Both the position numbers and the translations under genes were made by a program. 64,000 bases of DNA from contig NZ_JASHKQ010000012.1 of NCBI RefSeq assembly GCF_030056795.1, forward strand, positions 62,001 to 126,000, read 5' to 3'. Positions 40,078 through 41,962 of this stretch are shown here, piece by piece. Each line of letters starts with the position of its first letter. The stretch's first letter is position 1. The DNA comes from Rhodococcus sp. IEGM 1381 (lineage in GTDB: Bacteria > Actinomycetota > Actinomycetes > Mycobacteriales > Mycobacteriaceae). The notes below the pieces were generated by a model, which worked only from the letters and a program-made list of their open reading frames with translations, ran no database searches and was not told the origin of the DNA.

Positions 40078-41118
40078 CTAATACGCGGTACCCATCGCCG
40101 CGCGCACCTCGCTCAACGTCTGCTCAGCGATCTCGTTGGCCCGCTCGTTTCCACGACGCACCACCGACCGCACGTAGTCGGGGTCGGTAGCCACGTCGGC
40201 ACGCCGACGACGATGTTCTGCGAGCAACGAGTTGACCGACTCGGCCACACAGTCTTTCAATGATCCTGCTCCCCCACCACCTATGTCGGCGGCGATCGCC
40301 CCGGGGTCCCGCCCCGTACACAAGCCGGCGATGGTGAGCAGTGCCGATACTCCCGGCCTTGCAGCTGGGTCGTAGGAAATGTACCGATCCGAATCGGTAG
40401 GAGCTCGTCGCACCACTGCTACTGCCTCGTCCGGTGTCATGGACAGCGAGATCGCATTGCCGAAACTCTTGGACATCTTGCGGCCGTCGAGTCCCGGCAC
40501 TGCAGGGCTCGATGTCAGCAGCGCCTGCGGTTCCTCGAATACGGCACCGTAACGGTCACGGAATCGCCGCGCAATCACCCTCGATAATTCGATGTGTGGC
40601 AGTTGGTCCTTACCGACAGGCACCACAGTGGCCTTGCAGAACAAGATGTCGGCCACTTGGTGCACCGGATACGTCAGCAAGAGTCCGCTCAGAGCGCGGC
40701 CACTGGCGGCCAGTTCTGCTTTGACAGTGGGGTTTCGGTGAAGTTCCGCCTCGGTCACCAGGCTCAAAAACGGTAGCATCAGCTGGTTGAGGGCGGGTAC
40801 TGCAGAGTGGGTGAAGATCATTGACTTCTCGGGGTCGATACCCGCGGCCACATTGTCCAACGCCGCGTCGTACACGTGTTGTCGTACGTGCCCGATTGCG
40901 TCACGATCGGTGATCACCTGATAGTCGGCCAAGACGACCATTGTCCGGACCCCTAGGTCCTGTAGCCGAACTCGCTCTCGAATCGTTCCGAAGAGATGAC
41001 CGAGATGCAGTGGACCTGTTGGTCGTTCACCGGTCAAAGTTGTGTAGCTACCTGGATCGGCAGCGATCTCGGAGGCGAGCGCCTCGCTGCGGCCGATGCT
41101 GGACAAGTAGGTGTCCAT
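40078..41118 (-). CDS. trpS: Tryptophanyl-tRNA synthetase, probably auxiliary type
   Basis: A 346-residue class I aminoacyl-tRNA synthetase charging tRNA-Trp. HIGH-like PTGPLHLGHLFGT near residue 33 and KMSKS loop GRKMSKSFGNAI near 215. The sequence resembles the second, antibiotic-resistant type of bacterial TrpRS (the kind that protects against indolmycin-like inhibitors) more than a housekeeping one, but that judgement is from memory. AGGAGG lies seven bases before the ATG. The 160-nt leader holds a WWW leader peptide and competing hairpins, so expression likely rises on Trp starvation or TrpRS inhibition. It follows the response regulator gene on the same strand. Confidence 0.9.
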   Translation of the reverse strand: MDTYLSSIGRSEALASEIAADPGSYTTLTGERPTGPLHLGHLFGTIRERVRLQDLGVRTMVVLADYQVITDRDAIGHVRQHVYDAALDNVAAGIDPEKSMIFTHSAVPALNQLMLPFLSLVTEAELHRNPTVKAELAASGRALSGLLLTYPVHQVADILFCKATVVPVGKDQLPHIELSRVIARRFRDRYGAVFEEPQALLTSSPAVPGLDGRKMSKSFGNAISLSMTPDEAVAVVRRAPTDSDRYISYDPAARPGVSALLTIAGLCTGRDPGAIAADIGGGGAGSLKDCVAESVNSLLAEHRRRRADVATDPDYVRSVVRRGNERANEIAEQTLSEVRAAMGTAY

Positions 41119-41141
41119 CGAATTCCTCCTGAAAGAACGAA

Positions 41142-41234
41142 GGGCTGTACCGACCGCGCTTCGATCCGAATTCAGGACATAGGCGGGCTGAGTACAGCCC
41201 GCGGGACATGATCGACCGGGCTGCTAGTGCAGCC
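41142..41234 (-). promoter_or_regulatory. Transcription attenuator of trpS
   Basis: Mutually exclusive RNA stems follow the leader peptide. A 6-bp hairpin GGCTGC-ACTA-GCAGCC (41219-41234) covers its last codons. CAGCCCG (41217-41223) can pair with CGGGCTG (41195-41201) as antiterminator. The latter is also part of a perfect 8-bp hairpin GCGGGCTG-TACT-CAGCCCGC (41183-41202). GGGCTGTAC (41192-41200) can alternatively pair with GTACAGCCC (41142-41150), which is followed by a pyrimidine-rich stretch and the ribosome binding site. Ribosome stalling at the Trp codons would free or block these pairings. Confidence 0.75.
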
Positions 41235-41262
41235 ACCACCAAGCCTGTCGAGTGTCGATCAC
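41224..41262 (-). CDS. Leader peptide with three Trp codons upstream of trpS
   Basis: GTG-initiated 12-codon frame reading MIDTRQAWWWLH and ending in TAG. Three consecutive TGG codons are a hallmark of ribosome-mediated tryptophan attenuation. A TAA lies four codons upstream in frame, so the GTG is the only usable start; no strong ribosome binding site precedes it. Leader peptides of this kind are known for auxiliary TrpRS genes in Streptomyces. Confidence 0.8.
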   Translation of the reverse strand: MIDTRQAWWWLH

Positions 41263-41271
41263 TTCGACAGG
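41244..41271 (-). terminator. Hairpin between response regulator and trpS
   Basis: CCTGTCG-A-AGTG pairs with CACT-CGACAGG (11 bp, one bulged base, 5-nt loop), beginning about 11 bp beyond the response regulator stop. It could terminate the alcohol dehydrogenase-kinase-regulator operon, or be the first stem of the trpS attenuator, since it overlaps the leader peptide start. The sequence does not decide. Confidence 0.45.
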
Positions 41272-41281
41272 TTAGCAAACG

Positions 41282-41962
41282 TCAAATCAGCCCCTGCTTA
41301 CTTGCCGCGTACACGGCCTCGGCTCGTCTGGAGACCGACAGTTTGCGCATGATGTTGCTGACGTGGAACTTCACCGTCGTGGCCGAGATGAACAGTCGAG
41401 TTCCGATCATGTTGTTGGACAGACCCGTTGCCAGTAGACGGAGCACTTCGAGCTCACGCTCGGTGAGGCGCTCGATGCTGCTCGGCGTGCCGTTCAGTGA
41501 TCGAACGACAGCCGAGGCGCTGCGCGAATCGAAGGCGCTCTCCCCGCGCGAGACGGCACGGATGGCACGAACCAACTCTGTGGTGTCGACATCCTTGACC
41601 ACGTATCCCCGAGCTCCCGCGTGCACGGCCTCCACCACGAGTCGGTCGTCGAGGAACGTCGTCAACACCAGCAGACCGATTCCGTGGTGCGCCTTGGCCA
41701 GCTGTGCACACAGAGCAAGCCCCTCGTAGTCCGAGCTGGCCGAAAGCTTGAGATCCATCAATACGATGTCTGGCTCGACCCGCGCGACGACGGCCAAACC
41801 CTCCTCCCGGGTGGAGGCCTCCCCCACGATCGTCAGATCCGACTCGCGTTCGAGCACCGAACGCAACCCGTCCCTGAGAATTGCGTGATCGTCGACCAGC
41901 ACGATGCGGACCGTCGGTGCCGCCACCTGCCCTGTGTCCGTGCGAACCGTCGGAACGCTCAC
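41282..41962 (-). CDS. LuxR/NarL-family response regulator (MnoR-like)
   Basis: A 226-residue response regulator: receiver domain residues 18-140 with phosphoacceptor D70 (DIVLMDLKL) and acidic pair in VLVDDHAIL; LuxR HTH residues about 160-220 (LTERELEVLRLLATGLSNNMIG and FHVSNIMRKL). It overlaps the kinase gene by 4 nt (ATGA), and the kinase overlaps the Fe-alcohol dehydrogenase, giving one operon. The same three functions lie together near mycofactocin genes in Mycobacterium smegmatis (MnoSR-type system for diol/alcohol use, from memory). Likely activates this operon and the methanol dehydrogenase gene. Confidence 0.85.
   Translation of the reverse strand: MSVPTVRTDTGQVAAPTVRIVLVDDHAILRDGLRSVLERESDLTIVGEASTREEGLAVVARVEPDIVLMDLKLSASSDYEGLALCAQLAKAHHGIGLLVLTTFLDDRLVVEAVHAGARGYVVKDVDTTELVRAIRAVSRGESAFDSRSASAVVRSLNGTPSSIERLTERELEVLRLLATGLSNNMIGTRLFISATTVKFHVSNIMRKLSVSRRAEAVYAASKQGLI

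Follow-up and report, generated by a model that had tools for sequence, protein, structure and literature searches.

A probable tryptophan attenuator in front of the auxiliary trpS gene of Rhodococcus sp. IEGM 1381

The auxiliary trpS gene and its leader reading frame

We analysed a stretch of 64,000 nucleotides (the window) from the genome of Rhodococcus sp. IEGM 1381, which comprises 5.5 Mb in 43 contigs. All features described here lie on the minus strand. They include a gene for a 346 aa tryptophanyl-tRNA synthetase (TrpRS; 40078..41118) that matches TIGR00233 with 225.4 bits (cut-off 176.75), starts with an ATG at 41118-41116 and is preceded, as the sequence reads, by the Shine-Dalgarno (SD) motif AGGAGG at 41125..41130. 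The Tryptophanyl-tRNA synthetase II 2a4m is among its best sequence matches of solved structure (231.5 bits) and belongs by sequence to the same auxiliary TrpRS branch; to our knowledge, no leader is known for this TrpRS II. A family search of the genome recovered three synthetases of the class I W/Y family, two of which are TrpRS. The initial annotation had regarded the window gene as auxiliary and had looked to a second, housekeeping trpS, and this copy is indeed present, its product being 34% identical to the window enzyme.

Directly upstream of the trpS leader, family matches identify a two-component system of the MadS and MadR families (43332-41959 and 41962-41282). MadR/MadS-type genes are kept upstream of the leader in locus L006 and replaced in L005 and L007, so that a functional tie is unlikely.

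The leader open reading frame, recognised from its reading and from the leaders of relatives, spans 12 codons from a GTG start to a TAG stop (41224..41262) and encodes MIDTRQAWWWLH, with its Trp codons at 41241-41233. The range given in the initial annotation, 41142-41262, extends from the leader start through the end of the arm of the leader RNA that we call arm 4, and the 12-codon Trp-rich reading frame and mutually exclusive arms claimed there were all located in place. Conservation of the Trp codons had been named beforehand as a point on which the proposal could fail; WWW is kept in all five loci of the genus, in two of which the leader starts with ATG instead of the GTG of the window. 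Leaders of more distant relatives contain WWW, WWR, WW, W.W or a single W.

A TANNNT box lies 6 nt upstream of the window leader start, where no SD motif is found. This box, TAACCT at 41269..41274 with a TG one base before it, is the predicted -10 element of the leader promoter and would place the transcription start at or next to 41262. Since the earlier scoring of leaders (85 loci with leader) had used the promoter, the promoter test was redone blind to it, with leaders picked by a TGGTGG reading frame alone (75 loci) and only those kept that have a single possible ATG or GTG start (38 of 75). The TANNNT box was found 6 nt before the start in 31 of these 38 leaders and 7 nt before it in four, the remaining 29 spacings between 0 and 30 nt yielding three matches altogether; as in every leader test reported here, related genomes are not independent. 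An SD-like motif upstream of the leader start was absent from 36 of the 38 leaders and present in two. As 35 of the 38 leaders have a -10 box at a distance of 6-7 nt, translation of the leader probably takes place on a leaderless transcript that, judged by this promoter spacing, would begin with the first base of the start codon or immediately beside it. The box is also kept in L005 and L007, from two genomes of the genus, despite different upstream sequence, and is therefore part of the leader unit.

Alternative pairings and the fourth arm of the leader RNA

The leader RNA can be described in terms of an outer stem and five arms. The 5' strand of the outer, protector stem, GTGATCGAC (41254..41262), is the 5' end of the predicted transcript and pairs with the 3' strand GTCGATCAT (41208..41216), as counted for covariation in ten relatives; in 12 relatives outside the window genus the predicted protector stem begins at codon 5. 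Arm 0, GGCTGC (41229..41234), overlaps the third Trp codon and is a partner of arm 1, GCAGCCCG (41217..41224), which is in turn complementary to arm 2, GCGGGCTG (41195..41202). Arm 2 may pair with arm 1, with arm 3, CAGCCCGC (41183..41190), from which it is separated by the loop TACT (41194-41191), or with arm 4. The 2:3 hairpin has a predicted energy of -17.1 kcal/mol and no T-run after it. By eye, a CATG(T) motif was seen just before arm 2 (about 41205-41210 in the window) and also in many leaders of distant relatives. A search with Rfam gave no match at gathering score in the window and, for 41050-41400, only a chance-level match below that score.

The window leader folds better than shuffled versions of itself (z = -2.90; one of 200 shuffles equally good). 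For fold and arm statistics, 80 leaders were left from the 85 loci scored with a leader, after L003 and L034 (repeats of L004 and L007) and L181, L184 and L134 (without SD) had been dropped. The mutually exclusive stems of the initial annotation are borne out in these leaders, in which complementarity exceeded that of shuffles at p<=0.05 in 54 of 80 cases for 1:2 and in 42 of 80 for 2:4. Covariation in relatives, which the annotation had put forward as a check, was also detected. In ten relatives, the outer stem, 0:1 and 2:3 were jointly paired in 89.1% of cells, compared with 26-43% when the stems were slid, and 7 of their 22 pairs showed two-sided changes, a number reached by 4 of 500 shuffles. 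Five of the eight pairs of the outer stem have two-sided changes, yet only 76.3% of its cells are paired, and the 2:3 hairpin contributes two such pairs. The 0:1 stem is paired in 100% of cells and invariant, so that covariation yields no evidence for it; 1:2 is paired in 97.1% of cells, with no covariation among these ten close relatives.

On a short RNA, the predicted fold depends on the position of the ribosome. With the RNA ending just past arm 2 and a ribosome on the first Trp codon, the best fold contains 1:2 (-16.5 kcal/mol), and with the ribosome at the stop codon 1:2 is absent and the best fold has -3.1 kcal/mol; in the model, this dependence is the logic of attenuation. Once arm 3 is present, 2:3 prevails in the equilibrium fold in every ribosome state (P 0.937 to 0.998).

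What follows the 2:3 hairpin was studied in 18 leaders of the Rhodococcus family group, 17 from genomes of the family and one from a plasmid (L172); genome G928 (L247), whose leader has a different shape, was excluded from the counts of T-runs, arm 4 and barriers. None of the 18 has a run of four T after 2:3, the longest run being three (L008 and L237) and the tail in the window being CTATGTCCTGAA, and for this reason the element is not classed as an intrinsic-terminator subtype. In the wider set, 15 of 80 leaders carry at least four T after the hairpin, as expected of an intrinsic terminator with a U-run. Unlike the two Streptomyces copies that were read, and contrary to what the initial annotation implied, the family group thus lacks this T-run and has a fourth arm at the ribosome-binding site (RBS).

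This arm, GTACAGCCC (41142..41150), lies within the RBS hairpin, and its complementarity to arm 2 extends into the arm 2 loop. Some 40 nt beyond 2:3, it matches arm 2 plus loop in every one of the 18 leaders, over a length of 8-12 bp. For the window leader, a search without a pattern gave p 0.003 against shuffles; in the 18-leader test arm 4 was found by a CAG-like pattern, and partly by hand in L243 and L246, so that its p values lean towards pairing. The 2:4 helix is paired in 92.5% of cells in ten relatives that include the window genus, with one two-sided pair, and in 99.1% of cells in 12 relatives outside the genus, with no two-sided change; the shuffle control for 2:4 in these 12, using 3-way alignment counts, was uninformative (500/500).

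Given no structure, RNAalifold predicted three elements for the 12 relatives: a protector, the 2:3 hairpin and a hairpin that joins arm 4 to the RBS. The last is paired in 95.7% of cells, with two-sided changes in three of eight pairs (19 of 500 shuffles as high) and a covariation score of 0.326 (3 of 500 shuffles as high). Arm 4 therefore has two exclusive uses, either with arm 2 or in the RBS hairpin. Concealment of the RBS in one exclusive fold is seen in these 12 relatives, and the hairpin of the window genus is built differently: the anti-SD element TCCTGAA (41171..41177) pairs with TTCAGGA (41133-41127) and arm 4 lies inside, so the anti-SD strand is not arm 4 itself. In the fold without ribosome, TCCTGAA has a pairing probability of 0.93; in the local segment of the window alone, SD accessibility is 0.69 versus 0.35 when shuffled, hence not low.

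Across the wider set, full folding gave a mean SD exposure of about 0.2, versus 0.36 for shuffles, with p<=0.1 in 29 of 65 distinct leaders. Pairing of the SD in a single stem exceeded chance (p<=0.05) in only 9 of 80 leaders, and sequestration by a single stem was dropped as a description of the wide set. A clean split between a T-run class and an arm-4 class was likewise rejected (Fisher 0.044 with all 80 leaders and 0.42 with the 65 distinct peptides); the two features are weakly exclusive in nominal terms. One genome, G804 (L232/L246), has a short leader with a TTG or further-upstream start, in which an RBS hairpin CCCTTC/GAAGGG replaces the usual one.

Distribution of the leader and features of the enzyme

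The auxiliary trpS occurs in 5 of 37 genomes of the genus, and a housekeeping TrpRS in all 37 (as a frame with a stop in G035). At E<=1e-70, the auxiliary TrpRS was found in 47 of 397 sampled genomes of the order, 46 of 394 of the class and 18 of 401 of the family. A covariance model built from ten leaders, covering the promoter, the reading frame and arms 1-3, matched 20 of the 401 family genomes, and 17 of the matches lie directly before an auxiliary trpS. The 18th family trpS (G928, L247) has the leader MSSPTVRCCWRWPLLLRPR with a TATCCT box 7 nt upstream, as read by eye. Use of the leader before other genes was considered and discarded, the matches away from trpS (L233-L235) amounting to one decayed copy and two weak ones of 34 bits. 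The decayed copy, in genome G016 of the window genus (L233, minus strand, about 1500-1650), lies beside madR, without an auxiliary trpS, and its second Trp codon reads TAG by eye, which places a stop inside the Trp run. Two further leaders appear damaged by eye: L138 (G136) is broken, with a TAG before the Trp codons, and L160 (G511) has lost the leader reading frame and retains the arms. A TGGTGG leader reading frame was found before none of 26 housekeeping trpS loci.

To relate the leader to the number of TrpRS per genome, 101 genomes with an auxiliary trpS were counted and G069, for which there was no locus, was left out; L136, unscored earlier, G574, whose leader is cut by the contig end, and G668, whose leader is doubtful, were taken as having a leader, and L138 as lacking one. 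With relatives counted as independent, 81 of 90 genomes with at least two TrpRS carry the leader, the other nine having the auxiliary trpS without a sound leader, as against 2 of 11 genomes with one TrpRS; this suggests that the attenuator belongs to the auxiliary role of trpS. In Bifidobacterium, Collinsella and an Atopobiaceae genome, the sole TrpRS is a relative with 60-63% identity and has no leader. Loci of this kind, with one TIGR00233 match and without a Trp leader, are L035 and L036 (Bifidobacterium), L037 (Atopobiaceae), L038 and L039 (Collinsella) and L047, where the auxiliary-branch enzyme seems to have taken over as the only TrpRS.

Copies were also encountered on plasmids, namely L172 and L209 on Rhodococcus plasmids and L173, flanked by an IS21-type pair, on plasmid B of Microbacterium sp. 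No. 7; a leader was read in L172 and L173. As leader and gene travel together, plasmids included, the unit looks like a portable, self-regulated spare TrpRS. With regard to a phage origin, matches were obtained to 29 phage records, all of them below 60% identity.

Features of the enzyme were examined in the columns that we take, from their motifs, to be H43, D132 and Q147 in B. stearothermophilus numbering. Gln occupies the H43 column in 116 of 117 auxiliary-branch loci (one unread; gene repeats included), and His does so in 26 of 26 housekeeping TrpRS loci of the genus; D132 is kept in the 117 auxiliary-branch loci, and the Q147 column holds Gln in 105 and Asn in 12. H43, D132 and Q147 are given as binding determinants of indolmycin, and H43N as a change that confers resistance, in the available text of PMC4899734; the substitution seen here, to Gln, differs from that change. 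The sole TrpRS of Bifidobacterium and Collinsella also has Gln, so the residue is no marker of the auxiliary role. An auxiliary TrpRS of S. griseus is resistant to indolmycin, according to the relevant part of a review (PMC6804068). Judged by one residue and homology, resistance to a TrpRS inhibitor is a plausible function of the gene, and relief of Trp starvation is equally plausible.

Probable mode of regulation and relation to known attenuators

The leader RNA very probably switches trpS on when charged tryptophan-tRNA runs short. The anatomy of the leader, its conservation, its covariation and its company with the auxiliary trpS lead us to favour, as the probable arrangement, a ribosome-mediated Trp-codon attenuator whose output is most likely translation initiation, perhaps followed by Rho-dependent termination. 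From these features we infer the course of transcription start, stalling, switching and output as follows. Transcription would begin with, or immediately beside, the first base of the leader GTG, and a ribosome would consequently load at the 5' end and trail the RNA polymerase. With enough Trp-tRNA, it would reach the stop codon, arm 1 would be covered or paired with arm 0, arm 2 would close with arm 3, and the trpS RBS would stay in its own hairpin, leaving the gene off. When Trp-tRNA is short, the ribosome would stall on the Trp codons and block both the arm 0 pairing and the outer stem; arm 1 could then capture arm 2, 2:3 would be prevented and trpS would be on. Translation initiation is a likelier output than intrinsic termination because there is no T-run and the RBS hairpin with arm 4 is conserved.

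Two other outputs were considered. A transcriptional output only, in the style of Streptomyces, would assign termination to 2:3 and antitermination to 1:2, and the RBS hairpin would be incidental. The leader, arms 1-3 and the enzyme are of the Streptomyces kind, the 2:3 hairpin is strong (-17.1 kcal/mol), at least four T do follow the hairpin in 15 of 80 leaders, and TrpL2 of S. lividans is called an attenuator in the available text of PMC8079986 despite two hairpins and no U-rich stretch. We nevertheless regard this output as unlikely, because a run of four T is missing from all 18 family-group leaders and because a pure terminator would have no need of a covarying, conserved RBS hairpin. A Rho-dependent output, in which the hidden RBS and unread leader RNA would let Rho stop transcription and stalling would only delay it, agrees with the lack of a T-run after 2:3, and Rho has been proposed, in the portion of Seliverstov et al. 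2005 available, for Cys leaders of Mycobacterium that lack a terminator. It would offer no explanation for the conservation of arm 4 as a partner of arm 2 and the arm 2 loop, and we assign it a low probability.

That the leader is a nonfunctional, decaying remnant, kept by descent along with trpS, is very improbable. Decay does occur, as in L233, with a leader without trpS and, by eye, a stop in the Trp run, and in the broken leaders L138 and L160; within the genus, however, the promoter, the reading frame and arms 1-3 are almost unchanged although trpS has drifted to 81% identity, and the stems carry two-sided changes.

For the favoured attenuator acting on translation initiation, opening of the RBS by stalling at equilibrium was found to be unsupported by folding with a ribosome mask, both in the window and in 80 leaders. 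Equilibrium SD exposure of the window leader was 0.22 without ribosome, 0.03 with a stalled ribosome and 0.17 with the ribosome at the stop codon, and across the 80 leaders stalling raised exposure by >0.1 in seven and lowered it in eight. As equilibrium folding shows no stall-dependent opening of the RBS, the switch, if real, would be kinetic. Moreover, arms 3 and 4 have the same sense and both match arm 2, so that a plain register shift would leave the RBS closed.

How a stalled ribosome would free the RBS we infer only tentatively; a bold and less than probable reading is a Trp attenuator that acts on translation and combines a placeholder step with kinetic memory. Stalling would let arm 1 hold arm 2 and keep arm 3 off, the loop bases of arm 2 being left open as a toehold. 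The 5' bases of the newly made arm 4 could bind this toehold and displace arm 1, and the resulting 2:4 helix would draw arm 4 out of the RBS hairpin, turning the gene on. In the absence of a stall, arm 2 and arm 3 would close at once, with the toehold in a tight loop, and the RBS would stay hidden and the gene off. The calculated direct-path barrier from 1:2 to 2:4 is below that from 1:2 to 2:3 in 17 of 18 leaders (4.4-6.1 versus 7.6-9.8 kcal/mol), the exception being L005 (9.7 versus 9.2 kcal/mol). Barriers from 2:3 to 2:4, at 13.8-22.6 kcal/mol in the 18 leaders, would make interchange of the two slow. The loop bases that extend the 2:4 helix number 1.9 on average in 37 leaders, versus 0.7 by chance, with at least three in 16 leaders. 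The share of the window leader estimated to reach 2:4 after 1:2 was 0.51-0.76 at a rate constant of 1e6 per s and 0.00-0.07 at 1e7 per s; these are rough figures that depend on the rate constant and the speed of transcription assumed, ranging overall from 0.00 to 0.76. The calculation includes neither the RBS hairpin nor the ribosome and uses one spacing, the 41 nt of the window, for all three leaders calculated.

Several known systems resemble this leader. The auxiliary, indolmycin-resistant trpRS1 of Streptomyces coelicolor is reportedly attenuated, in work attributed to Kitabatake in 2002 and to Vecchione and Sello in 2010. Like the Rhodococcus locus, it combines a second TrpRS gene, a leader peptide with Trp codons, exclusive stems and a predicted induction by shortage of Trp-tRNA; its output is said to be transcriptional, whereas here there is no T-run and a fourth arm is tied to the RBS. 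The initial annotation had proposed Trp attenuation of this Streptomyces architecture, and the leader, the Trp codons, the exclusive stems and the second trpS stand, while the step that carries the output probably differs. Leader peptides also mediate translational attenuation, for example of erm genes, in which stalling decides whether a downstream RBS is hidden. Stalling would likewise govern concealment of the RBS here; unlike in the erm type, the signal would be amino-acid starvation, and arm 4 has the same sense as arm 3.

Closer in several respects is trpL2-trpS of S. lividans TK24, where RNA-seq placed trpL2 before trpS as leaderless (PMC8079986, available text). This leader shares with ours two hairpins and the absence of a uridine-rich stretch, and its leaderless start agrees with the one predicted here; it differs from the Rhodococcus leader in that its peptide has one Trp and in that no RBS arm is described in that text. 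Candidate attenuators have been predicted for trpS2 of S. avermitilis and for trp operons of Actinobacteria, according to the part of PMC1262725 available to us, and these resemble the present leader in their repeats of the Trp codon and in an antiterminator and terminator that share an arm triple. Two plasmid copies from Streptomyces, BHT-5-2 and Mut1, have the leaders MQLSSCLSWWRSS and MHLSSCLSWWRSS, and by eye four T end the 2:3 hairpin in both. Among the papers accessible to us, none was found that brings together TrpRS, a leader peptide and Rhodococcus. The accessible text of PMC4833913 cites Korolev et al. 2015, a conference-type paper that deals with Trp attenuators of Actinobacteria, and the RBS-linked form may have been noted elsewhere in the literature.

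An attenuated second trpS is already known from Streptomyces and hence expected; the fourth arm tied to the RBS is the difference. If the RBS reading is true, one Trp sensor would be wired to two outputs within the Actinomycetes: some lineages would use a U-tract terminator, the Rhodococcus family the RBS. The leader would then be a compact case for attenuation by leader peptides in high-GC bacteria with few U-tract terminators, and for the view that ribosomes ordinarily enter leaders of this kind by leaderless translation.
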